64,000 bases of DNA, from contig JAGYKB010000002.1 in the NCBI GenBank assembly GCA_018401885.1, positions 62,001 through 126,000 of the forward strand, in the 5' to 3' direction. The translations under genes and the position numbers were made by a program. The notes beneath the pieces were generated by a model that made no database searches, was not told the origin of the DNA, and saw nothing but the letters and a program-made list of their open reading frames with translations. This document shows positions 9,014-62,172 of this stretch, piece by piece (position 1 is the first letter of the stretch; each line of letters starts with the position of its first letter). Source of the DNA: Gammaproteobacteria bacterium. Its GTDB lineage: Bacteria; Pseudomonadota; Gammaproteobacteria; Pseudomonadales; Pseudohongiellaceae.

Positions 9014-9762
9014 TGCTGCGTACCTGCTTGGCTGCAAACTCGTCCGCGGCTGAGTGTTTGCTCGCAGTCGAATTCCGCACGCGGCGCGTCGTAGCGGTTA
9101 AAGGCTTGCCGTAGATCGAAGGATTCGCTGCCCTTGCTAATGACCGAGGTGATGAGATTGAGCAGCAGGCCATCGGATGACACGCTGAAGCGATGAACGA
9201 TAATTAAGTCATCGGGAAGCATTGTTTGGAAGACTAACTGCTGCCCGTCCCAGCCGCACGCTTCGACGCCATGGTTGCTCGCGAACGTTTGCTGAACCTG
9301 CCAACCCGTGCCACAGACTAGAGACGAATCGCCGCGACGCTCGATGCGGATTTCGTCACGCGTTTGATCAATACGTAGCGTGGTTTGGCGGCTGATATAT
9401 TCCGCGAGGCGCGCGAGATCTATGATGCTAGCGCCGCGACCGCGACTGCTATTTAGATTGATATTACCAATCGAGATTGGCGGCACGCTCACTCTAGCCG
9501 CTGCACCGGGATTGCCGCCCTGACGCGCAGCAGCCTCTTGCCTCAGGCGCATCTTACGTGTGAGTTCATCTTGCCAGTCGTCGCTGCGGCGAAAGTCCTT
9601 CTCCCAGAATCCGCTAAAATCCAGTCGAAGCGGCTGGTCGAGATCGAGAACCGTTAGCTGATCATTGTCTTGGGCAATAGCTGGCAGGACTACGAAACAG
9701 GTAAGCAGGGTTACTACGCCGAGAATCCGTGGGAGAACAGTCGATGTGACACAGCGAGACAC
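9010..9762 (-). CDS. Secreted hypothetical protein, coupled to the lipoprotein
   Basis: I use the GTG at 9762, which gives 250 residues and a clean signal peptide (hydrophobic core Leu-Gly-Val-Val-Thr-Leu-Leu, then Pro-Ala-Ile-Ala-Gln). The frame continues upstream to 9954, but those residues do not look like a protein N-terminus. The RBS (GAAGG) is distant, so the start is uncertain. The mature part has four cysteines, near Val-Cys-Gly, Glu-Ala-Cys-Gly, Asp-Cys-Glu and Val-Cys-Ser, that could form two disulfides. It also carries an Ile-Gly-Asn-Ile-Asn-Leu segment and an amphipathic region rich in Arg. The overlap with the lipoprotein gene suggests the products work together in the envelope. 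The family is not recognised. Confidence 0.6.
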   Translation of the reverse strand: MSRCVTSTVLPRILGVVTLLTCFVVLPAIAQDNDQLTVLDLDQPLRLDFSGFWEKDFRRSDDWQDELTRKMRLRQEAAARQGGNPGAAARVSVPPISIGNINLNSSRGRGASIIDLARLAEYISRQTTLRIDQTRDEIRIERRGDSSLVCGTGWQVQQTFASNHGVEACGWDGQQLVFQTMLPDDLIIVHRFSVSSDGLLLNLITSVISKGSESFDLRQAFNRYDAPRAEFDCEQTLSRGRVCSQAGTQQ

Positions 9763-9930
9763 AGCGAGCCAGGCACCTTCGAAGGGCGACAACTGAGTAT
9801 GTGGCAAGAGTTTGATGCTGAGCACTGCGACTGAGTTCCCTAAGTTCACTGCGTCCGACTGCAAGATAAGAATACACGTGCTGTCGCTGCGTAGTCTAAG
9901 AGTATACGGGCTGAGTGTAAAAAACACGCA

Positions 9931-9957
9931 ACTCACATAACTCACATAACTCACGCA
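9931..9957. repeat. Triple 9-bp tandem repeat
   Basis: Three successive copies of ACTCACATA (the third ending CGC rather than ATA) lie between the divergent genes at 9762 and 10078. The unit is short and nearly perfect. It belongs with the other short tandem arrays seen at 649, 23043 and 36659. Confidence 0.7.
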
Positions 9958-10077
9958 GATAAAGCCGAAGCCTGAGATGATGACAACTGGCGCTCGCCGC
10001 TAGACTTACATTCCGTGCGGGCCTACTCTTATGGCATATTAGCTCGCGGCGTAAACGTAGATCTTAAGGAGAACACA

Positions 10078-11358
10078 GTGTCATTTCGCAGCAATACCCT
10101 CGTTATTTCACTCATGCTTGCGATGGCATTGCTGTCAGTCTGTGTGCGCGCGATTGCGCAGCCAGGCGCTACCGATGAGACGCTCGAGACACTTATTGGC
10201 CGCTTCTGGCATGCACAAACTGAAGAGGAGCGTTCCTCAGTGGCAGAGACGCTGCTCGCAAAGAATCTTGAGGCGCGCAGCGTTTACCGCGCACTCGCCG
10301 CGGCAAAATTACACACGAGCGATGTAGCGACCGGTGTTGTCCGCGATAGTCGTACGAGCGAATCTGGCCTCGAGTTGCCGTATGCAGTGCTTGTCCCGAC
10401 AAGCTACGATCCAGACAAGCGCTACCCCGTAGAATTTATGCTACACGGTGGCGTTGGCCGACCAGCGTGGCAAGACAACGAGGATTTCTGGCGCCGAGGG
10501 TATGATAATTTACTTAGCGAGGACAGAATCACGGTCGTCCCCGCAGCGTGGCGCGATGCGATTTGGTGGCAAGAGGAGCAGGCGCGTAATCTGCCGGCTA
10601 TTTTGCGCCAAGTGAAACGTGATTACAGCGTAGATGACAATAGGGTAACGATGACAGGCGTATCCGATGGCGGTACGGGTGCGTATTTCTTCGCCTTTAA
10701 ACAGCCAACGCCGTGGGCAGCTTTTCTTCCTTACATCGGTAATGCGGCGGTGCTGAGAAATCCACAGAGTGGCGGCGGCTATCGGCTTTATTTTGAAAAT
10801 CTACGCGATAAGCCGCTGTTTATCGTCAATGGTGAGAACGACCCTCTCTATCCGGCCTCGTCAATAAAACCGTTTGTCGAGGTCCTCGACGAAGCCAAGG
10901 TTAACTTCGAATTCACGGTCATCGAGAACGGAGGCCATAATCTCGACTGGCTGCCCGCTCAGCTTGATCGCATCGAGGCGTTCAAAAGCGAGAATCCGCG
11001 AGACCCACTGCCTGATGTGCTGCAGTGGGTTGCCGATCGCACCGATATCTATAATCGTAACCATTGGCTTGTAATCGATGAGCGCACGGGATTCGGCAAG
11101 CCTGCAGTCATTGCAGCGACCCGCAACGGCAACTCTTTTGTGGTCGATACTTCGGGGGTTAAAAAGTTCACGCTCCTGCTCAGCCCGAGCGAAATCGATT
11201 TCTCTGCACCTGTTACTGTGACACTGAACGGCCGAGAGAGTCACGGCGCGATAATCGAGGAGAGCACCGAAACCTTGCTAAAGTGGGCTCAGCGCGATTT
11301 AGATAGATCGATGCTATTCACTGCAGAACTCGCCATTCGTCTGGAATACGCCGAGTAG
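10078..11358 (+). CDS. Secreted esterase/phospholipase-like alpha/beta hydrolase
   Basis: A 426-residue exported hydrolase. The true start is the GTG at 10078, because a perfect AAGGAG (10066-10071) lies six bases before it. This gives a signal peptide with core Leu-Val-Ile-Ser-Leu-Met-Leu-Ala-Met and cleavage after Ala-Ile-Ala-Gln. The enzyme core includes Tyr-Pro-Val-Glu-Phe-Met-Leu-His-Gly-Gly, a nucleophile elbow Gly-Val-Ser-Asp-Gly-Gly-Thr-Gly, and an Asn-Gly-Glu-Asn-Asp-Pro-Leu-Tyr / Gly-Gly-His-Asn acid-His pair. This is typical of polyhydroxyalkanoate-depolymerase-like or feruloyl-esterase-like proteins. A C-terminal beta domain follows. The next gene, 92 bases on, encodes a secreted beta-propeller, so the two may share a substrate or transcript. 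Confidence 0.8.
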   Translation: MSFRSNTLVISLMLAMALLSVCVRAIAQPGATDETLETLIGRFWHAQTEEERSSVAETLLAKNLEARSVYRALAAAKLHTSDVATGVVRDSRTSESGLELPYAVLVPTSYDPDKRYPVEFMLHGGVGRPAWQDNEDFWRRGYDNLLSEDRITVVPAAWRDAIWWQEEQARNLPAILRQVKRDYSVDDNRVTMTGVSDGGTGAYFFAFKQPTPWAAFLPYIGNAAVLRNPQSGGGYRLYFENLRDKPLFIVNGENDPLYPASSIKPFVEVLDEAKVNFEFTVIENGGHNLDWLPAQLDRIEAFKSENPRDPLPDVLQWVADRTDIYNRNHWLVIDERTGFGKPAVIAATRNGNSFVVDTSGVKKFTLLLSPSEIDFSAPVTVTLNGRESHGAIIEESTETLLKWAQRDLDRSMLFTAELAIRLEYAE

Positions 11359-12826: not shown

Positions 12827-13471
12827 TCACAACGCGATAATTTTCCCGCCCGCGGCTTGTGCGTCGGCGAGATCATGGGTTACGAGAAAGGCGGGGACGT
12901 CAGCGGCGCGTAGGGTGTCGAAGGTAAATGTCCTAATTTCTTCGCGCAGTTGCATGTCAAGATTGGAGAACGGCTCGTCCAATAAAATTGCTTTAGGTTC
13001 TGATAAAAGCAGCCGCATGAGTGCAACGCGCGACTGCTGACCTCCCGAGAGGGATGCCGGATCACGGTCGCCGAAGCCTGCTAACCCTATTGCGTCGAGC
13101 GCCAGTTCTATCCTAAGGTCTCGCTCCCTCGGGCTTTCGCCGACTTTTCGTACCAAGCCAAATTTTAGGTTCGCAGCGACACTCAGGTGAGGAAACAGCA
13201 GCGCGTCCTGGAACAACAAACCGATGCGTCGCTTCTCGGCCGGCACGGCATTCAATTCTTTCCCTGCAAGCAAAACTCTTCCCTCGGCGGTAAACGCATC
13301 GCCTAAAAAACCGGCGATAAAGGCAAGCAGTGTCGATTTCCCGGTGCCGGAGGCGCCCATGACTGTCATGACCTCTCCCGGTGCTACGCTGCAGCTGAGT
13401 GAGAGCAATTGCCTTGAACCGACACTCAGGGAGACGTTTTGTAATTCTAATCCGGTGGTCATGGTGGTCAT
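12827..13471 (-). CDS. ynjD: ABC transporter ATPase, YnjD type
   Basis: A 214-residue ATP-binding cassette subunit. The Walker A motif is Gly-Ala-Ser-Gly-Thr-Gly-Lys-Ser-Thr (residues 39-47), the signature is Leu-Ser-Gly-Gly-Gln-Gln-Ser-Arg-Val, Walker B is Ala-Ile-Leu-Leu-Asp-Glu-Pro-Phe-Ser-Asn-Leu-Asp, and the switch is Val-Thr-His-Asp. It is the last gene of the substrate-binding protein / fused permease / ATPase set and lies eight bases after the permease gene. Size, motifs and partner architecture fit E. coli YnjD (COG4136) of the uncharacterised YnjBCD importer. The family is near polyamine/iron/thiamine-type importers, but the substrate is not known. It energises uptake from the cytoplasmic face. 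Confidence 0.85.
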   Translation of the reverse strand: MTTMTTGLELQNVSLSVGSRQLLSLSCSVAPGEVMTVMGASGTGKSTLLAFIAGFLGDAFTAEGRVLLAGKELNAVPAEKRRIGLLFQDALLFPHLSVAANLKFGLVRKVGESPRERDLRIELALDAIGLAGFGDRDPASLSGGQQSRVALMRLLLSEPKAILLDEPFSNLDMQLREEIRTFTFDTLRAADVPAFLVTHDLADAQAAGGKIIAL

Positions 13472-13479
13472 AATGATCC

Positions 13480-15189
13480 TTAAAGCATGCCTTTCCTATT
13501 CGACCAAATGAGGCGAGGGGCTAGTAAGGCTAGCATGAAACACAGAGTGGGCAATGCAGATTGGAGTAGCGCCCAAGTTCCAATCGTGCCGCGGCTGCCG
13601 GATGAGACGAGCGCGATCGCCTCTGTCGTGATCGTGGGAACACGGCCTGCTCCTAGAATCTGCGTTGGCAAATAGAGGCTGAGACTAATCGTTAACCCGA
13701 GCATGGCGGCGGTAATGAGCTGCGTGCTTATCAGAGGAATCCGAACGCGCAAAAAACAAACAGCGCTCGATGCGCCGAGAGTTTTCGCAAGCAGCAACCA
13801 GCGGGAATCTAGCCGTGCATAGCCACTCTGTAAGGTTAAATACACATAGGGCATCACGAAGAAAAAGTGACCACCCGCGACCAGTAGGAGAGAGGGAGAA
13901 AGTCGTGTGCGCTCTGCGAAGACGGCGATGCCCGAAACAAAAACGACCTGCGGTATTAATAACGGGAGATAGAGAAACGTTGAAAGACGTGTAGTGTTCG
14001 CCCTCGATCGTGTTTGCGCTTCTAGCGTGATAAGCGATAAGACAATCGCGGCAGTAACCGAAAGTAGCGCGATAGCAATCGCGTTAAACAAGGGCGTCTG
14101 CCATGTCGATAGCGCTGTCGACCAATGCTGCAGACTCCACGCAGTCGGCAGAATCGCCGGATAGCGCCACTGCGCGCCAACACTGGCCAAGAAAAGCGCC
14201 ATAATCCCCATCAGCACAAGCACGAGCGATGTCGGAATTAGGGTGTTACCGATCGCGGTGAGAACTGCCTCAAAGCGCAAATCTGTGGAGGCGGCGCGCG
14301 GCGCGCCTCGCGCTGCGATACTCGCATAGGCACGCGCAGTCAGGCGTTCAAAAATTAACCAAATACTGAGAGCAAAAAGGCTGATAAAAAGCTGCAAAAG
14401 CGCCGCGGCTGAAGCGAGCTGTCGCTGTTCGATCTCGGGCGCAACAAACCACTCCACGAGTCTTACGCTGAGTGTGGGCGGCAAGCTTGGGCCGAGAATT
14501 AGTGCAACATCAACGGTCGAAGACGCGAAAACAATCACGGCAAAGAGCGGGAGTCTAATCAGTGGGTAAAGCGCAGGCGCAACTGTAAGTAGCCAAGCTG
14601 TTGTTGGTCTGTAGCCTAAGGTACGTGCGAGGGCAACGCGCCGAGGCGCATCCGTTGAGGGTAGAGCAGCGAGTGCGACTAGTAAAACGAAAGGCGCTTC
14701 TTTTAGCGCGAGGCCCAAGATAAGTGCAACACTGTTCGGATGATTAATGAAAAGAAAGTCCGGCGGTAGCTCCCAGCCGGCCACGCTCGCAATAATTCGA
14801 CTCGCAATACCGGTAGGTGCAAGCAAGAGTGCCAGCGCAAATGCTGCCGCGGCATGGGGGATCGCAAGCACTGGCGCTGCGAGCTGAGCTATCATTTTGC
14901 CTGTTCGCCCTTCCTGCGAGGCCGCTAAGAATAAAAAGACGCTCACAAGAGAAAGAGCCGGCGTTAGTAGGCCAGCGAGAAGACTCGTCATTGCGCTAGT
15001 TGCAATTCCGGGCGTCGAGACGAGCGCGATAAAAGCGGGCGGGATTTGCCCAGCGAAGTAATTCAAAGAGTCATTTAAAGAACCGTCTGAAAGGTTGTAT
15101 TGGGAGAACGCAGGCGCAAGAGCCAGAACGCTGCCTACTAGTGGAGGGGCGCCGAGTACAAGGAAAAGCAAACGCGTTGACCACGACAT
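13480..15189 (-). CDS. ynjC: ABC transporter fused permease, YnjC type
   Basis: A 569-residue inner-membrane protein with about twelve helices and two binding-protein-dependent permease halves in one chain, the layout of YnjC (COG4135). Coupling-loop signatures of the EAA type are visible in both halves (Lys-Glu-Ala-Pro-Phe ... Ala-Arg-Thr-Leu-Gly-Tyr near residues 160-190; Leu-Ala-Lys-Thr-Leu-Gly-Ala near residue 465). It starts three bases after the stop of the binding-protein gene and ends eight bases before the ATPase gene, so all three are co-translated. It should form the pore with the ATPase at 12827. The substrate is unknown. Confidence 0.85.
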   Translation of the reverse strand: MSWSTRLLFLVLGAPPLVGSVLALAPAFSQYNLSDGSLNDSLNYFAGQIPPAFIALVSTPGIATSAMTSLLAGLLTPALSLVSVFLFLAASQEGRTGKMIAQLAAPVLAIPHAAAAFALALLLAPTGIASRIIASVAGWELPPDFLFINHPNSVALILGLALKEAPFVLLVALAALPSTDAPRRVALARTLGYRPTTAWLLTVAPALYPLIRLPLFAVIVFASSTVDVALILGPSLPPTLSVRLVEWFVAPEIEQRQLASAAALLQLFISLFALSIWLIFERLTARAYASIAARGAPRAASTDLRFEAVLTAIGNTLIPTSLVLVLMGIMALFLASVGAQWRYPAILPTAWSLQHWSTALSTWQTPLFNAIAIALLSVTAAIVLSLITLEAQTRSRANTTRLSTFLYLPLLIPQVVFVSGIAVFAERTRLSPSLLLVAGGHFFFVMPYVYLTLQSGYARLDSRWLLLAKTLGASSAVCFLRVRIPLISTQLITAAMLGLTISLSLYLPTQILGAGRVPTITTEAIALVSSGSRGTIGTWALLQSALPTLCFMLALLAPRLIWSNRKGML

Positions 15190-15192
15190 TCG

Positions 15193-16464
15193 TTAGCGAC
15201 CTCCGCCGTAACGCCGTAGCCATTCTCGCTCTAATTCATTGGTCCAGCTTGGATGCGGCTCTTGGATTTTTCTTGCAAGTTCGGTGGGCGAAATTGCCCC
15301 CGGCGCACGCGCATTTTCGAGCAGCACTGCCTGTTGTTGAGGTGCAAAGTTTTCAAAAGACAGAACTGGCTCGCTTGCAAGTTTCGTGTTCGTCGCCGCT
15401 TTAAACTGCACTTCGGGCGAGAGTAGAAAATTACTCACAATCATCGCGCCTTGTTTACTTGGTGCGTTGTTTGGGATGGCTACAAAGCTCACATTGCTCA
15501 GAGTGCCTGATTCGAATACGTAGCTTCGAGTGCTGGGGGCAAGTTCGCCGCGGCTAATCGAGCTCACTACCTCGTTTGGGCTGAAGGCGAAAGCGAGGCT
15601 TATTTCTCGGTCATTCAACGCAGATCGAAGCTGCGCTCCGCTTTGTGGGAAATGACGCGCCCCTCTGAGTAGATAGGGATGAATTTCGTCTAAGAATGTC
15701 CACAGCGGCGCGGTGACCGCGTCGAATGAGTCGTTCGGAGGGTTCGTGAAAAGGGTTTCAATGTCAGTAGTTTTTGCTTCTGCTGTGAGTTCGATTAGGA
15801 GTTGCTTCAACAGTGTTGTGCCGAGAAAAGCAGGCGGACGAGGATAAGTAAACTCACCGGGGTTTTCTTTTAGCCACTTCCTTAGCGCCTGCGCCGTGCG
15901 CGGCGGTTCGATAAGTCGCTCGCTGTCGTAGTAGAAAATAAGTTGGGACCGAGTCCAAGGCGATTCGTAGCCCTCGGTTTTAACGCCGAAGTCTTGCCGC
16001 ATTTCTGGAAAGCGATCGGCATCGACTAGGTGGAAGTTTGGCTGTGCCTCGGCCCACGGACCGAAAAGCAAATTCGCGCGCTTAAGCGCCGAAAAATTTT
16101 CGCCATTCAGCCAGATGAGATCTGCACTGCCGCGTTCGGTATTGCCCGCGTCACGCTCGGCGATAAGCCGTGAGACAGCCGATGAAGTATCTGCGAGCTT
16201 GACATGAATGAGTTCGATACCGAATCGCGACAGCGCTTCGGCAGCTACCCAAGAGAGGTGGGCGTTTAGCGCTGTATCGCCACCCCACGCATGAAAATAG
16301 ACACGCTGGCCGCGCGCCTCAGCGCTAATCTGCGGCCAGTTGTCCGCATTAACAGATGATTGGCACAAAGCACTGGTAGAAAAGCTGGCTAGTAACCACG
16401 CCCCGGCAGGCAACGCGATCAGCCTTATCTTTTCGAAAAACGCCCGTGAAAAAAAGTTACCCAT
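15193..16464 (-). CDS. ynjB: ABC transporter substrate-binding protein, YnjB type
   Basis: A 423-residue periplasmic binding protein with an N-terminal signal (core Leu-Ile-Ala-Leu-Pro-Ala-Gly-Ala-Trp-Leu-Leu, cleavage near Ala-Leu-Cys-Gln). The mature protein shows the YnjB hallmarks: Arg-Val-Tyr-Phe-His-Ala-Trp-Gly-Gly, Ala-Asp-Leu-Ile-Trp-Leu-Asn-Gly-Glu-Asn-Phe, and Leu-Leu-Phe-Gly-Pro-Trp-Ala-Glu. A Cys just before the mature N-terminus could make it a lipoprotein (Ser-Ala-Leu-Cys), but the context is weak. Its start codon lies within the radical SAM gene, an eight-base overlap that implies co-translation. It delivers the unknown substrate to the YnjC permease. Confidence 0.85.
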   Translation of the reverse strand: MGNFFSRAFFEKIRLIALPAGAWLLASFSTSALCQSSVNADNWPQISAEARGQRVYFHAWGGDTALNAHLSWVAAEALSRFGIELIHVKLADTSSAVSRLIAERDAGNTERGSADLIWLNGENFSALKRANLLFGPWAEAQPNFHLVDADRFPEMRQDFGVKTEGYESPWTRSQLIFYYDSERLIEPPRTAQALRKWLKENPGEFTYPRPPAFLGTTLLKQLLIELTAEAKTTDIETLFTNPPNDSFDAVTAPLWTFLDEIHPYLLRGARHFPQSGAQLRSALNDREISLAFAFSPNEVVSSISRGELAPSTRSYVFESGTLSNVSFVAIPNNAPSKQGAMIVSNFLLSPEVQFKAATNTKLASEPVLSFENFAPQQQAVLLENARAPGAISPTELARKIQEPHPSWTNELEREWLRRYGGGR

Positions 16465-17542
16465 TGCTCGCGATAACGGCTAAACGTTTCCCGCGGCGTT
16501 CGCTGCGTCGTTTATCCAATGCTGCGCCCAGCACCTCTTTGTGAAACTTGTCACAGGCGATGCAGAGATTCGCATAGGGCTCGCCCTTTGGTGTGGTGGT
16601 CTGAGATTCGGCAAAGAAGCGTTCTCTGTCCCAGCCATCACTGAGTCCCATGCGTTCGGGTTTGCCTGCGTTAATGGCTTCCATCGCAGGCATGCCGGTC
16701 AGGCTGTCGAGAATCTCGAGTAGGGGCTCCTCTGTGAGGTTGCCCAGCGGATGTGCTGTTTTTATACAGCACGGAAACACATCGCCGTTAGGGTCGATAG
16801 AGACTTCAGAACCGGCGTAACCGTGGTTGAGAAAATTAAGACCGCCCGACCACGCATTGCAGAAATTATCGGTGAGCGTAGCGCTCGAAAGCCCGTTCTC
16901 CCATGCGCGGCCGCGTGGCCAGAGTTTTCCAATCCACGTGTCTTCGTTGGCGCCGAACATATTGTACAGAGGCCCCTGCTCGAATCCCCGTTCATGACGA
17001 TCGGCTTCAGGGTCTGCCTTGCGCACTCCCCCTTCCTCAAGCATTGCGGCAATCTTGTTAGCCTGAGTAACTTTCTTGTCGCCTTCCATTCCAACGTGGA
17101 AGTCGTCCATGCCCGACACCGAAATAGTCCACACGCCGAGGTCGACGAGCTCCCGAATAATGGTTGGTGTTAGTAGGTCGCCGGTTGTTTGCACAACTAC
17201 GCTGACACCGCCCTGCGCTGCGTATTTTTCGCGTATCGCGGCAAGTGTCGGATAGAGCACAGCCTCGCGCACCGGTTCAGTGAGAACGTCACCGCCGGAA
17301 AGTATTATTTTGCCGATGCGTTCGACGAATAGTTCTGAACCCGCTGCGCGCTCCGCCTCGGTTGCAGCCTCGAGATAGGTTAAGCGCGCGGGCAGGTTGG
17401 CGATTACACGCGGGGCGTTGGCCTTTGCCTCCGCAACCACGCCTGCGAGCTCCTCGCGAATGTAAGGTCTGAAACGCTCCTCGTAGCAGTGTTTGCAGCG
17501 GCGGTGGCAGTGCCAGCAGAGCACGTAGTAAATTGATTCCAT
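16457..17542 (-). CDS. Radical SAM protein with SPASM-like C-terminus
   Basis: A 361-residue radical SAM enzyme. The 4Fe-4S motif Cys-x3-Cys-x2-Cys is at residues 12-19 (Cys-His-Arg-Arg-Cys-Lys-His-Cys), with a further Cys at 9. Gly-Gly-Asp-Val-Leu-Thr-Glu-Pro is the SAM-binding Gly-Gly motif. The C-terminal third has cysteines in Phe-Pro-Cys-Cys-Ile-Lys, preceded by Asp-Pro-Asn-Gly-Asp-Val, and in Leu-Cys-Ile-Ala-Cys-Asp, the pattern of an auxiliary-cluster (SPASM-type) domain. No precursor-peptide gene is visible next to it. It lies 46 bases after the acyl-CoA ligase gene and overlaps the YnjB-type gene by eight bases, so its product probably works on, or makes, the molecule handled by the transporter. 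This is inference. Confidence 0.85.
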   Translation of the reverse strand: MESIYYVLCWHCHRRCKHCYEERFRPYIREELAGVVAEAKANAPRVIANLPARLTYLEAATEAERAAGSELFVERIGKIILSGGDVLTEPVREAVLYPTLAAIREKYAAQGGVSVVVQTTGDLLTPTIIRELVDLGVWTISVSGMDDFHVGMEGDKKVTQANKIAAMLEEGGVRKADPEADRHERGFEQGPLYNMFGANEDTWIGKLWPRGRAWENGLSSATLTDNFCNAWSGGLNFLNHGYAGSEVSIDPNGDVFPCCIKTAHPLGNLTEEPLLEILDSLTGMPAMEAINAGKPERMGLSDGWDRERFFAESQTTTPKGEPYANLCIACDKFHKEVLGAALDKRRSERRGKRLAVIASNG

Positions 17543-17588
17543 GAACTTCTCACTGTTGTTCGATATTACTAGCGTAGCATCGCGCCTG

Positions 17589-19073
17589 TTAGGTGGCTAA
17601 CGTCTTTAGCGCTGGTTTAGTGACTTTGCCCATCGCGTTACGCGGGAGCGAGTCTAGAACATGCAGAGACTTGGGGATCTTATACCCGGACATCTTGCCG
17701 TCGCACCAGGTTTTGAGGGCGTCATATGACAAGGTTTTTGTTGGTTTAAGTACGACGAAAGCGCTTACAGATTCCCCCCACGTCTCGTCCTCGATGCCGA
17801 TTACAGCGACCTCCGCAATATCGTCATGGGTCAACAAAGTGCCTTCGATTTCGAGCGCCGACAGCTTGTATCCACCGGACTTGATGATATCGACGGACGA
17901 GCGACCCATGATGCGGTAATAGCCTTTGTCGAGAACAGCCACATCGCCTGTGCAGAACCAGCCATCGACGAAGCTCTCTTTTGTTGCCGCTTCGTTGTTC
18001 CAATACTCGAGGAACACGTTGTCGCCTTTTATGCGGATTTCGCCAGGCGTATTTTCCTCTGTGATAGGTGTGTTCGAGTCATCGAAAAGTTGTGCATCGA
18101 CACCCGGCAGAGGCTGGCCGACGTGGCCTGCTCGGCGCTCGCCGACATAGGGATTCGATAGGCCCATCCCGATTTCTGTCATACCGTATCGTTCGAGGAG
18201 CACTTGATCGGTAAGCGCTTTCCATTGCTCAAACAGCTTGACTGGGCAAGCAGCAGAGCCGGAGATGTTTAGGCGCATACTTCGAAAACCCTCGGTGATT
18301 CTTGCAACGCCGTCGTCGCCAAGCGTCTCGAAATACTGCAGTAATTTTACATAGATTGTTGGCACCGCCATGAACACGCTATACCGTTTGCTCGCCACTT
18401 TTGCGCAGATCTCGGGCATATCAAATTTCGCGTAGAGGTCGACTGTAGCGCCGGCCCAGAGTCCGCAGCTAAGAATATTAATAATGCCGTGAATGTGATG
18501 CACAGGCAGGAATAAAGGAATCGTATCGGCCTCGCTCCACTGCCAGGCATCGAGTAATGTCGTGATCTGCGCGGCGATGGTTTTATGCGTGCTCACAACA
18601 CCCTTGGGCTTATTTGTCGTACCCGAGGTGAACAGCATCATCGCACGTCGCTCTAGCGCGATGTCGGGCAGCGTTGCGACGTCTGCGCTCAGAATCTCTT
18701 CGACGCTGAGCAGCTCGATATTAAGTGAGGTGCAGAGTGCGGTGAGTGACTCGCGATACTCGCCGTTCGCGATCATGCGGCTGACGCTCGCCGAACTTAA
18801 ATAATGCTCGAGTTCGGTGACCGCCGAGGCCACATTAAGGGGCACTGCGATGCCTCCCGCTCGCCAGATGCCGTGCATTGTAGTGACGTAGTCGATACTG
18901 GCAGGCATAAAGAAGGCGATGCGCTCTTCTTCTAGATCGGCTTTGCCGCGTAACAGCCCCGTTGCGAAACGATCGCAGCGCAGATTCAGCGCCGCATAGG
19001 AGATGACTTTGTTGCCCTCGACGAGAGCGGTTTTGAGGTTGGTGGCATTAAGTGTGGGAAAGCTGCTGCGCAT
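17589..19073 (-). CDS. matB: Acyl-CoA synthetase, probable malonyl-CoA synthetase (MatB-like)
   Basis: A 494-residue AMP-forming acyl-CoA ligase. Visible ANL-family motifs are Leu-Phe-Thr-Ser-Gly-Thr-Thr-Asn-Lys-Pro-Lys-Gly (P-loop), Tyr-Gly-Met-Thr-Glu, Trp-Phe-Cys-Thr-Gly-Asp, Gly-Gly-Tyr-Lys-Leu-Ser, and the catalytic Lys in Pro-Arg-Asn-Ala-Met-Gly-Lys-Val near the end. The length and Gly-Tyr-Lys hinge fit malonyl-CoA synthetase MatB, which makes malonyl-CoA from malonate, ATP and CoA. That specificity is inferred mainly from its place directly after the MadL/MadM malonate carrier genes. No malonyl-CoA decarboxylase is in the window. Other short-chain or aromatic acids remain possible. Confidence 0.8.
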   Translation of the reverse strand: MRSSFPTLNATNLKTALVEGNKVISYAALNLRCDRFATGLLRGKADLEEERIAFFMPASIDYVTTMHGIWRAGGIAVPLNVASAVTELEHYLSSASVSRMIANGEYRESLTALCTSLNIELLSVEEILSADVATLPDIALERRAMMLFTSGTTNKPKGVVSTHKTIAAQITTLLDAWQWSEADTIPLFLPVHHIHGIINILSCGLWAGATVDLYAKFDMPEICAKVASKRYSVFMAVPTIYVKLLQYFETLGDDGVARITEGFRSMRLNISGSAACPVKLFEQWKALTDQVLLERYGMTEIGMGLSNPYVGERRAGHVGQPLPGVDAQLFDDSNTPITEENTPGEIRIKGDNVFLEYWNNEAATKESFVDGWFCTGDVAVLDKGYYRIMGRSSVDIIKSGGYKLSALEIEGTLLTHDDIAEVAVIGIEDETWGESVSAFVVLKPTKTLSYDALKTWCDGKMSGYKIPKSLHVLDSLPRNAMGKVTKPALKTLAT

Positions 19074-19135
19074 AGCGAGTCAAAACCTTAGGTTACTGGG
19101 TCGATTAAAATGTGTGAAGGGGTGGTCAAACGCGA

Positions 19136-19897
19136 TTAGAAGAGTGCGCTCACGGCAAAGAATAAAACCGAAGGCCCAAGGAGGCAACCAACGCCGGTGT
19201 AGAATGTTGCGGTCATTGCCCCGTAGGGCACGAGTTTCGGATCCGTTGCCGCAAGTCCGGCGGCGACGCCGCTCGTTGTCCCCATGAGGCCGCCAAATAC
19301 CATCGCCGACTGGGGATTGTTCAGCCCGATCGAGCGCGCAACAAGCGGCGTGCCGATCATGACCAGAATAGACTTAACAAGCCCTGCTGCGACGCTTAGC
19401 GTAACAATTTCCCCGCTCGCACCGATTGCTTCACCCGTCACAGGGCCCACGATATAAGTGACCGCACCCGCGCCGATGGTTGTGATTGCGATAGGGTCGG
19501 TATAGCCGAACGCGACGGCAACCGCCGCGCCAACGATAAATGACACAATGACTCCAGCAAAAATAGACACGACACCCGCAAGCCCGGCTTTCTTGAGTTC
19601 ATCTAGGTGTACGCCAAAGGCTGTCGAGACAATCGCGAAGTCGCGCAGCATGCCCCCGCCCATGAGTCCGATACCGCCTAGCAGCGTAATGTCAGCGACC
19701 CCTTTCGAACCGCCAGTTACGGTGCCGCCCCAATACGCCGCGAGCAAGCCCAGGGCAATCGCTATTGCCGAGCCATGGAGCCTTCCGGCGGTGAGCTTGT
19801 CGGCGAGCAAATAGGAAAACCAGATGGTGACCCCAATTACCGCAAAGGCGACGACGAGGCTGTTGCGAATAAAGACCGATTCGATGAGATCGATCAT
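19136..19897 (-). CDS. madM: Malonate carrier subunit MadM
   Basis: A 253-residue polytopic membrane protein that matches MadM (usual length about 254), the larger subunit of the sodium:malonate symporter first described in Malonomonas. Gly-rich helices such as Gly-Gly-Ile-Gly-Leu-Met-Gly-Gly-Gly-Met-Leu-Arg-Asp-Phe-Ala and Val-Phe-Gly-Gly-Leu-Met-Gly-Thr-Thr-Ser-Gly-Val are characteristic. Its ATG overlaps the TGA of madL by four bases, so the subunits are translated together. It should import malonate across the inner membrane for the ligase encoded 62 bases downstream. Confidence 0.9.
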   Translation of the reverse strand: MIDLIESVFIRNSLVVAFAVIGVTIWFSYLLADKLTAGRLHGSAIAIALGLLAAYWGGTVTGGSKGVADITLLGGIGLMGGGMLRDFAIVSTAFGVHLDELKKAGLAGVVSIFAGVIVSFIVGAAVAVAFGYTDPIAITTIGAGAVTYIVGPVTGEAIGASGEIVTLSVAAGLVKSILVMIGTPLVARSIGLNNPQSAMVFGGLMGTTSGVAAGLAATDPKLVPYGAMTATFYTGVGCLLGPSVLFFAVSALF

Positions 19898-20283
19898 GGC
19901 GCCTCTCCTCGCTGCTCTGAAACAGCCCCAGAGTTGCCGATTCTGCTAATAACCGGAACAAGCAGGAAGCTAACGACGACCGCAGCGACACCGGCGACAA
20001 GTGCAAGTAGGCCGCCGGAGGCAGCCGCGGCGACATTCTGCTGCGCCGCCATTGCCACGACAATCGGAATATACATGGCACTCCAAAACTGGATGCCCTG
20101 AGCGGAGGCGCCGCTGCTGAGGAGTTGGAATTTCGCCGAATTGCTCGCGAGAACAAGTAGCAGCATCGCGATACCGACGCCGCCTACGTTGGCGTCAATT
20201 CCAAGCGCTGCGCCAAGTGCCTGGCCGATGAGCATACCTATCACCAGGCAGGTGGAGAGCAGCGCTACGCCGTAAATGATCAT
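19894..20283 (-). CDS. madL: Malonate carrier subunit MadL
   Basis: A 129-residue membrane protein with four hydrophobic segments, matching MadL, the small partner of MadM. The family signature Gly-Val-Ala-Leu-Leu-Ser ... Ile-Gly-Met-Leu-Ile-Gly ... Asn-Val-Gly-Gly-Val-Gly-Ile-Ala-Met is present. AAAGGA precedes the ATG at 20283. It is the first gene of a seven-gene minus-strand run (madL, madM, ligase, radical SAM, YnjB, YnjC, YnjD types), so the promoter should lie in 20284-20400. No regulator gene for it is seen nearby. Confidence 0.9.
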   Translation of the reverse strand: MIIYGVALLSTCLVIGMLIGQALGAALGIDANVGGVGIAMLLLVLASNSAKFQLLSSGASAQGIQFWSAMYIPIVVAMAAQQNVAAAASGGLLALVAGVAAVVVSFLLVPVISRIGNSGAVSEQRGEAP

Positions 20284-20516: not shown

Positions 20517-22161
20517 ATGTCGAGAATGCAGAGTTTGCAAAAATCACTTTGCGCCGCGCTGCTGGGGGGACTGCTTTTCGTTGGCACGGCGTCTGCGCAG
20601 AATGTCACCACAGAAGTCCTTGAGGATGCACAAAACCTCTCCGATCGCTGGGTGCACTACGGCCGTAACTATGGCGCGTGGCGCTATATGCCAGACGATC
20701 AGATTAATCGCGAGACAGTAAAAGATCTGCGCCCTGTTTGGATCAAGCAGACAGGAGTAACGGGTGGTGCGTTCGAGGTGACAGCCCTGGTTAACGACGG
20801 CCGCATGTATCTGACAACCGCTAACAGCCACCTCATCGTCGTCGATCCCCTGACGGGCGCTGAGCTATGGCGCTATGACCATGATTTCGCGGACGTCGAT
20901 CTCTGTTGCGGCCCGCATAACCGCGGTGTTGCGCTTTACGAGGATATGGTTTTCTACGGCACGCTCGATGCACATCTGATGGCGTTCGACGCCGCAACGG
21001 GCACACAGCTATGGGACACCGAGGTTGGCGACAACCGTGAATCGCTTTCGATTACCGGCGCACCGCTGGTAGTTAAAGATATGGTACTAATCGGCGTGGG
21101 CGGTGGCGAATTCGGTATTCGCGGCTTTATCGACGCTTATGATGTGCACACGGGTGAGTTGCGCTGGCGCTTCTGGACAACCGCAGGCGAAGACGACCCT
21201 AACAACGACACATGGCTCGGCGATTCGTGGAAAACAGGCGGCGGGCCAACTTGGGTGACAGGCACCTACGATCCCGAAACGGATCTCATTTTCTGGGGCA
21301 CTGGTAATCCATGGCCAGACGTGAACGCAAACATCCGCGCCGGCGATAATCTCTACACTAACTCAGTAGTCGCGCTGCATGCAGATACGGGGGAACTCGA
21401 GTGGTATTTCCAAACTTCTCCACGTGACGAGTTCGATCATGATTCGACTTCTGAGCCGATGATTATCGAAGAGATGTGGGAAGGCGAGATGCGCAAGATG
21501 GTAATTCAGGTCTCGCGCAACGGACACGTTTACGGACTCGATCGTTTCAGCGGCGAGTTCCTCTATGCGGGCGAATACACGCGCGTGAACTGGGCTGACC
21601 GCGACGAACGTGGTAAGCCGGTGCTTAAAGAAGCGTTTAAAGAGCCTAAGAACGAGATGGTTTTCCCAGGCCTTTACGGCGGAAAAAACTGGCCGCCAGC
21701 GTCTTACAGTCCAGACACTCATATGCTCTACATTCCGACTACGGAGTGGGGCGCGCGCTTCATCCGACGTGAAGGCGAGGGTAGGCCGGGCACGATGGAC
21801 CTAGGTGGCATGGTGCGGTTTCGACAAGTCAGGCACTGGTTGGGTCGTCGCCTTAGTTACTCACAGGGAAGTCGACTGGCGAAGAGATGCGGGCAATTTC
21901 GCTTGGGCAGGTACGCTCGCTACTGGCGGCGAGTTTGGTATTCTCAGGCGCGCCGGATGGCTATCTCTATGCGCTGAACATGAGACTGGCGAAGTGCTCT
22001 GGAAATTCAAACGGGTAGCGGCTATCCTACGCACCACCGACGAGTTCCACGATCGACGGTAAGCAGTACATTGGCATTGCCTCCTGGTACGCGCGATCCT
22101 GTCTCGCGCTGAGTGTCGCTTCAGGTATTTCTCAGACAATTACATCTTGTTTAGCCTTTAA
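20517..22161 (+). pseudogene. PQQ-dependent dehydrogenase, frameshifted 3' third
   Basis: The first 430 or so codons read well: a signal peptide (Leu-Leu-Gly-Gly-Leu-Leu-Phe-Val-Gly-Thr-Ala-Ser-Ala-Gln), the vicinal Cys-Cys at residues 130-131 typical of quinoprotein alcohol dehydrogenases, and propeller Trp motifs. From about 21,815 the homologous protein is spread over three frames. Asp-Lys-Ser-Gly-Thr-Gly-Trp and Trp-Ala-Gly-Thr-Leu-Ala-Thr-Gly-Gly are in one frame, Gly-Ala-Pro-Asp-Gly-Tyr-Leu-Tyr-Ala-Leu-Asn in another, Glu-Thr-Gly-Glu-Val-Leu-Trp-Lys-Phe back in the first, and Ile-Asp-Gly-Lys-Gln-Tyr-Ile-Gly-Ile-Ala in a third, with a C-terminal Ser-Leu stop at 22,159-22,161. This requires at least four indels. 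The uninterrupted frame ends at 21,977. The enzyme is probably inactive unless these are sequence errors. The likely ancestral role was periplasmic alcohol oxidation. Confidence 0.85.
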
Positions 22162-61921: not shown

Positions 61922-62172
61922 TGGTTATATCCTTAGTTATTTAGGCGTTAGAGCAGAGTAATTACTCACGCCGGGCAATTGGCCAAATTGAATCAATTTG
62001 ATACAAGGCAAGATTGCTTTTTAGATAGGGATTATCGGCAGGAAGCGGAATAGTCGGAGTGGAAGTTGCGGTTAAATTTGAGTCTTCGTTAACGCCTTAA
62101 TTGATAGGCTTGCTACACTCGGACCTAGGCGTTAATCCCGGGTAGCGTCGCCGGCTCGTGAGTTAGATACAG

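Follow-up and report, generated by a model that had tools for sequence, protein, structure and literature searches.

A conserved radical SAM–YnjBCD gene pair beside malonate uptake genes in a gammaproteobacterial locus

Do genes that lie in one unbroken run also serve one pathway? The question is raised by a 64,000-nucleotide stretch of DNA, hereafter the window (positions 62,001 to 126,000 of contig JAGYKB010000002.1, assembly GCA_018401885.1), from a marine gammaproteobacterium of the Pseudohongiellaceae. Seven genes in it encode the malonate transporter subunits MadL and MadM, a MatB-like malonyl-CoA ligase, a radical S-adenosylmethionine (SAM) protein (here rSAM) and a YnjBCD-type ATP-binding cassette (ABC) importer (Table 1). 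The initial annotation described seven minus-strand genes in a single run, and the list of open reading frames (ORFs) bears out all coordinates, gaps and overlaps. This run very probably consists of two modules placed end to end on one strand. MadL, MadM and the ligase form the first; the second, comprising rSAM, YnjB, YnjC and YnjD, is with equally high confidence an optional module that stands right after the ligase in some members of the genus. The second module represents a variant of an importer operon that is already known, though uncharacterised, and its pairing of enzyme and importer is real and conserved.

The pairing was followed in a scan of 84,980 species, represented by one genome each, which was seeded with exact rSAM peptide patterns and returned 68 loci of up to 10 kilobases (kb). 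The presence of YnjB next to rSAM was scored by tblastn with the window proteins. The initial annotation had staked its reading on this adjacency being conserved in at least one other genome, and YnjB directly follows rSAM on the same strand in 49 of the loci. In three more, one gene lies between them, 13 have no YnjB, and in three the contig ends too early. As the adjacency recurs in other genomes, it is more than a product of chance. The intervening gene in the three loci (L033, L063 and L069) encodes an APH-type kinase. In L069, from Marinobacter gelidimuriae, the first 37 rSAM residues alone are matched (approximately positions 2173-2277), and matches to APH, YnjB, YnjC and YnjD remain downstream.

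Hosts of the rSAM loci include named Pseudomonas, Marinobacter, Pseudohongiella, Bosea, Roseovarius and Novosphingobium records together with many metagenome-assembled genomes (MAGs), and the pair itself is found in Gammaproteobacteria, in Alphaproteobacteria and in MAGs of other phyla. Identity to the window rSAM reaches 97% in a Pseudomonadales record, 96% in a Gammaproteobacteria record and 94% in OM182 bacterium BACL3. Three records labelled Bacteroidota and one Vicinamibacterales record carry it. The nearest outside relatives of these four are alphaproteobacterial for both proteins, which is consistent with joint transfer, and mis-binned MAGs are possible. The two proteins have diverged in step: their distance matrices from 51 loci correlate with r 0.86, compared with a maximum of 0.22 in 2000 permutations, in a comparison that has no control for host relatedness and is weakened by this. 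The available portions of the literature found on YnjBCD, on radical SAM proteins with MadLM or YnjB, and on SPASM proteins with transporters do not mention the pair. A MAG titled Klebsiella pneumoniae (L017) also carries it; this label is probably wrong, since its rSAM and YnjB group with those of an uncultured gammaproteobacterium (L018).

The importer belongs to the same family (COG4134-4136) as that of the Escherichia coli ydjXYZ-ynjABCD/ynjE/ynjF locus. The window YnjB matches PRK11622/NF008633 with 458 bits (cut-off 203), and identities to the E. coli proteins are 43% for YnjB, 28% and 40% for two pieces of YnjC, and 45% for YnjD. The order B-C-D, with a double-length permease and a short ATPase, is also that expected of this importer. 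In E. coli K-12 the genes are arranged as ydjX-ydjY-ydjZ-ynjA-ynjB-ynjC-ynjD-ynjE, with ynjF facing them. Unlike the window, the E. coli locus lacks a radical SAM gene and contains DedA-type, ferredoxin-type, AhpD-like and sulfurtransferase genes. The statement of the initial annotation that ynjBCD of E. coli lies apart from the genes found here is correct for the 15 kb viewed, where neither a malonate nor a radical SAM gene is present. A table of the FNR regulon includes the ydjXYZ-ynjABCD operon, and direct activation of ynjE by FNR is reported in the same source (PMC3688515). The importer is described as enriched in one Marinobacter clade (PMC9207381), and YnjB is accompanied by an APH-type kinase in two Marinobacter records of the present set (L033, L069). 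In the portions of literature available on YnjBCD and on ynjB, ynjC and ynjD, no substrate is named. The structure of the window YnjB was predicted with a pLDDT (predicted local distance difference test) of 91.2.

The rSAM protein reaches 30.2 bits with the Pfam SPASM model (cut-off 21.5) and falls slightly short for Radical_SAM (27.6 bits, cut-off 29.5). Across 44 aligned sequences, the CX3CX2C motif (C12, C16, C19) is invariant, as are the auxiliary-cluster cysteines C228, C258, C259, C327 and C330. The full two-cluster SPASM motif comprises seven cysteines; with five invariant cysteines after the core, the protein is closer to the single-cluster Twitch type. The AlphaFold model of the window protein (mean pLDDT 89.7) finds its closest structural matches in EpeE and, second, BtrN, followed by sactipeptide and other peptide maturases. 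EpeE is a radical SAM peptide epimerase (PDB 8ai1-8ai6), from which the system described here differs in having importer genes as neighbours and no conserved precursor peptide. BtrN is a radical SAM dehydrogenase (PDB 4m7t) that oxidises an aminocyclitol; its sequence is barely similar to that of the window rSAM, and it is not known to be encoded in an importer operon.

Family models do not name the protein. The window rSAM stays below every curated NCBIfam cut-off, and ten NCBIfam families are matched at E 0.001 by any of the 44 members, including peptide maturases, heme-pathway and viperin models, all weakly. DynA is matched by 37 of the 44 (the window protein with 26 bits against a cut-off of 450) and the NCBIfam viperin model by six; the PADLOC viperin match of the window protein is likewise weak (19.1 bits, E 1.7e-4). 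A profile of the rSAM family finds nothing at E 0.01 or better among PDB sequences.

The best explanation overall, which is slightly favoured, is that the two modules are independent and that YnjBCD imports a solute which rSAM modifies. That the enzyme acts on the cargo of the importer is in itself rather probable. Specifically, a small polar solute would be bound by the periplasmic YnjB and brought by YnjC and YnjD into the cytoplasm, where rSAM would modify it through hydrogen abstraction. The reaction could be a dehydrogenation or an epimerisation, as in BtrN or EpeE, and transfer of a 5'-deoxyadenosyl group is also possible; the reaction type is a guess. The initial annotation had claimed that enzyme and importer should share a molecule. 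The conserved pairing behind this claim has held up, and the common substrate, like the order of the steps, is inferred. Radical SAM enzymes require reduced iron-sulfur clusters. It may be speculated that a role of the system at low oxygen would fit this need together with the listing of the E. coli operon under FNR.

Several further observations weigh against this explanation. The exact-pattern seeding of the locus scan detects close relatives only. Among the 13 loci without YnjB, nine are alphaproteobacterial (Rhodobiaceae and Parvibaculum among them), three are from Nisaea and one is L064; rSAM can thus exist without adjoining YnjBCD. In a sample of 398 genomes of the phylum, YnjB was found in 51, rSAM in four, and both in two, namely the window's own genome and G370, whose copies are on different contigs. 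A tree of 94 YnjB proteins interleaves rSAM-linked and unlinked copies with eight changes, at least four of them forced, which suggests that the YnjBCD family gained or lost the rSAM several times. The fold closest to rSAM is that of a peptide epimerase. Finally, the YnjB model matches binders of sugar phosphates, polyamines, metals and sugars at similar scores, and no substrate inference was drawn from it; by sequence, YnjB finds weak polyamine-binding matches alone in the PDB (E 0.06).

Copies of rSAM that have no adjoining YnjB form a small number of sets in the rSAM tree, which are an alphaproteobacterial group containing Parvibaculum and Rhodobiaceae, L054 together with L055, Nisaea, and L064. 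In this tree G370 and the Nisaea nitritireducens locus L068 have identical rSAM sequences; YnjBCD is therefore probably encoded away from rSAM in one or more Nisaea genomes. In the Parvibaculum/Rhodobiaceae group, a TetR-type regulator and an MMPL-type transporter follow rSAM in L051, L052, L053, L056 and L059, and a TauD-type dioxygenase is encoded upstream in L051, L052, L053, L058 and L059 (the three Pfam names are taken from the L051 member).

Table 1. The seven genes of the run, in the order of transcription.
Gene product	Position	Strand	Length (aa)	Basis or remark	Junction with the next gene
MadL, malonate transporter subunit	19894-20283	minus		NCBIfam equivalog cut-off passed; malonate module	4-base overlap
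MadM, malonate transporter subunit	19136-19897	minus		NCBIfam equivalog cut-off passed; malonate module	62-base gap
MatB-like malonyl-CoA ligase	17589-19073	minus	494	Family scans (AMP-binding ligase) and PDB matches; malonate module	46-base gap
Radical SAM protein (rSAM)	16457-17542	minus	361	SPASM/Twitch-type auxiliary-cluster cysteines; unnamed family	8-base overlap (YnjB start over rSAM end)
YnjB-type periplasmic solute-binding protein	15193-16464	minus	423	NF008633 match	3-base gap
YnjC-type double-length permease	13480-15189	minus	569	E. coli YnjC match; weak family-scan matches	8-base gap
YnjD-type ABC ATPase	12827-13471	minus	214	E. coli YnjD match; ABC ATPase in family scans	

The malonate module resembles known systems for malonate uptake and activation that combine MadLM with MatB. 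MadL (137 bits, cut-off 113) and MadM (382 bits, cut-off 236) both pass their equivalog models. In difference to those systems, the ligase stays under the cut-off of the curated malonyl-CoA synthase model PRK07514 (335 bits, cut-off 558). Its PDB matches at E 1e-60 or better number five, every one named as a malonyl-CoA synthetase or ligase (two are chimeras), and given these matches the ligase likely works like MatB. Judged from their families, MadLM and the ligase would take up malonate and activate it to malonyl-CoA. A malonyl-CoA decarboxylase was not found in the own genome, in a search that had no positive control and whose controls were silent too.

The initial annotation proposed that malonyl-CoA or its product feeds an rSAM reaction with an imported compound, so that all seven genes would form one pathway. 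The single same-strand run in the window speaks for this, as does the visibility of MadM in 18 of the 68 rSAM loci. Furthermore, a search of 61 genus genomes for rSAM found it in 17 (16 with YnjB, and G008, whose contig breaks off within rSAM), and in 14 of the 17 MadM is a near neighbour on the contig that carries rSAM. Of the others, the contig of G039 (L008) ends in a ligase fragment, the modules of G054 are on separate contigs, and MadM was not found in G031. The distribution of the modules argues in the other direction. MadM is present in 60 of 71 genus genomes and YnjB in 16, all of which carry rSAM; where rSAM and MadM were both searched for (61 genomes), 51 genomes have MadM and 35 of these no rSAM. 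The rSAM loci themselves likewise speak against the malonate connection: among the 50 that show no MadM, upstream sequence exceeds 5 kb in 41. A lipocalin-like gene (155-170 amino acids), absent from this place in the window, lies between ligase and rSAM in 14 loci (L005, positions 9372-9839, and 13 others), and further genes do so in L004 and L037.

A tblastn examination covered 18 MadM regions, namely that of G054 and 17 from genomes in which YnjB is lacking. MadL, MadM and the ligase stand in a row in all 18, and no rSAM or YnjB match at E 1e-3 was detected in them (17 have at least 3.7 kb after the ligase; L153 ends there). In L158 and L166 an ATPase matches YnjD weakly, which could be expected of any ABC ATPase. 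Directly after the ligase, L164 has relatives of c15, of NHL/c9 and of DLH; in the window NHL and DLH are located beyond YnjD, and L005 contains c15 and c9. L164 thus looks like an empty slot of the rSAM-YnjBCD module. The link to malonate was rejected on the patchiness of the second module compared with the near-universal first, the 18 regions without rSAM and the split in G054. A common pathway of all seven genes is very unlikely, and the malonate genes are most likely mere neighbours of rSAM-YnjBCD.

The neighbours of YnjBCD in other genomes may say something about the cargo. The neighbour lists likely contain residual ORF mis-calls, and most Pfam names of neighbour clusters rest on one member. 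The 398-genome sample contains 50 further genomes with YnjB; the YnjB regions of 25 were obtained, 24 of them with the anchor. In these 24 loci without rSAM, a YnjF-type CDP-alcohol phosphotransferase is near in 12, a VTT or VTT-FAD gene in 12 and DUF547 in six. A YnjF-type gene lies near rSAM in four loci (L032, a weak match, L036, L038 and L067); the YnjF of L067 has a single clear PDB match, the CDP-alcohol phosphotransferase AF2299. The Bosea vaviloviae locus L038 combines VTT-FAD, YnjF, rSAM, YnjB, TIGR04283, TIGR04282 and YnjC in one run. APH-type kinases are encoded beside YnjB in L033, L063, L069 and L125 and beside rSAM in L064, and TIGR04282/TIGR04283-type genes occur in L027, L038, L044, L064 and L125. 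These YnjF-type, APH-type and TIGR04282/TIGR04283 neighbours hint at a polyol- or head-group-like cargo. The genes upstream of rSAM include one of PAPS-reductase type in L021 and a thioredoxin and DsbD-type pair in L067. L125 is a YnjBCD locus without rSAM in which an APH-type kinase, a TIGR04282-type gene and a VTT-FAD fusion adjoin the importer; its APH-type protein has no informative PDB match. The window's own genome carries a TIGR04283-TIGR04282 gene pair away from the operon, on contig C56 (L189, positions 9242-10695). As specific partners of rSAM these two families were rejected: TIGR04283 is present in 62 of 71 genus genomes and hence uninformative there.

Three other explanations of the rSAM-YnjBCD module were weighed. 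The enzyme could modify a peptide or protein, such as a short peptide that YnjBCD takes up or one of the system's own proteins. This would agree with EpeE as the nearest fold, the maturases ranking behind it and the weak DynA matches in 37 of 44 members; the weak heme-pathway and viperin matches speak against it. A small-ORF search covered 929 ORFs from 67 loci, within 800 bases before rSAM and after YnjD. It yielded no precursor peptide conserved across lineages, as none of the 12 largest clusters, which were those inspected, spans more than one lineage. Within the window operon the gaps are too small for a precursor gene; short ORFs are present downstream of YnjD. The remark in the initial annotation that no precursor gene is visible is therefore upheld for these clusters, and modification of a peptide or protein appears improbable, albeit worth keeping in mind. 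A conserved protein of about 100 amino acids with no Pfam match is encoded just upstream of rSAM in one gammaproteobacterial lineage (L022, positions 9585-9890, and six other loci).

It is also conceivable, and somewhat less probable still, that rSAM and YnjBCD are joint passengers, kept together by co-transfer or shared regulation, with an enzyme target unrelated to the cargo. The 13 loci with rSAM and no YnjB, the many YnjBCD loci without rSAM and the retention of APH and YnjBCD beside an rSAM remnant in L069 speak for this; the fixed gene order and short spacing in 49 loci and the presence of rSAM in 16 of 16 genus genomes with YnjB speak against it. A specific version of the best explanation is a head-group pathway, in which an imported alcohol or polyol would be modified by rSAM where present, phosphorylated by the APH-type kinase and joined to a lipid by the YnjF-type enzyme. 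It draws on the YnjF-type genes in half of the 24 rSAM-less YnjB loci and near rSAM in four, the APH-type and TIGR04282/TIGR04283-type neighbours, the resemblance of the L067 YnjF to AF2299, and the aminocyclitol substrate of BtrN, second by fold. The window run has no such genes, the frequency of TIGR04283 in the genus says nothing on rSAM, the L125 kinase finds no telling structure, and the neighbour counts have no baseline from unrelated genes. In this specific form the idea is distinctly doubtful. Import of a solute by YnjBCD and its modification by rSAM, without a commitment to the lipid, is the reading preferred here.

The companion genes also raised the question of a relation to ArsS (TIGR04167), whose clusters in some cases hold VTT-FAD, TIGR04282 or TIGR04283 genes, as found near YnjBCD. 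The ten families that any of the 44 rSAM members, the window protein included, match at E 0.001 do not include the ArsS model. As a partner of rSAM-YnjBCD, ArsS was rejected: a direct test of 44 genomes, 42 of which belong to the 51 with YnjB, did not find it in any, nor was it found in the own genome. YnjB (51 genomes) and ArsS (116 genomes) never occur together in the 398-genome sample (Fisher p 8e-9, uncorrected for relatedness), where the samples behind both counts appear to be the same set. The carriers share no genus, and both genes are present in families f16 and f42; the exclusion may be a clade effect. In 20 ArsS loci from the 116 genomes, VTT-FAD exceeds 600 bits in seven, TIGR04282 is present in four and TIGR04283 in two, numbers for which there is no background rate of neighbours. 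Because the companion genes VTT-FAD, TIGR04282 and TIGR04283 are common to both and YnjB and ArsS never co-occur, rSAM-YnjBCD and ArsS-type clusters might be alternative entries into one unrecognised pathway, with an undescribed rSAM reaction on the imported compound. This idea is a long shot; if true, YnjBCD imports what the ArsS route makes inside the cell.

A scan of the window for promoters and terminators gave nothing conspicuous (three promoter-like sites, 4.4 expected; 15 terminator-like sites, 9.4 expected), and neither Rfam matches at the gathering score nor tRNA genes were found in it. A gene for a pyrroloquinoline quinone (PQQ)-dependent dehydrogenase adjoins MadL on the plus strand (20517-21977, an ORF of 486 amino acids, and 21805-22062). 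Most of its relatives upstream of MadL in other loci have 545-610 amino acids, and the end of the window gene may run on in another frame, which would point to a broken gene or a sequencing error.

YnjBCD occurs in E. coli and in 51 of the 398 sampled genomes of the phylum, and a conserved adjoining enzyme is a handle on its cargo. The reaction of rSAM, once solved, would point to what YnjBCD imports, and vice versa.

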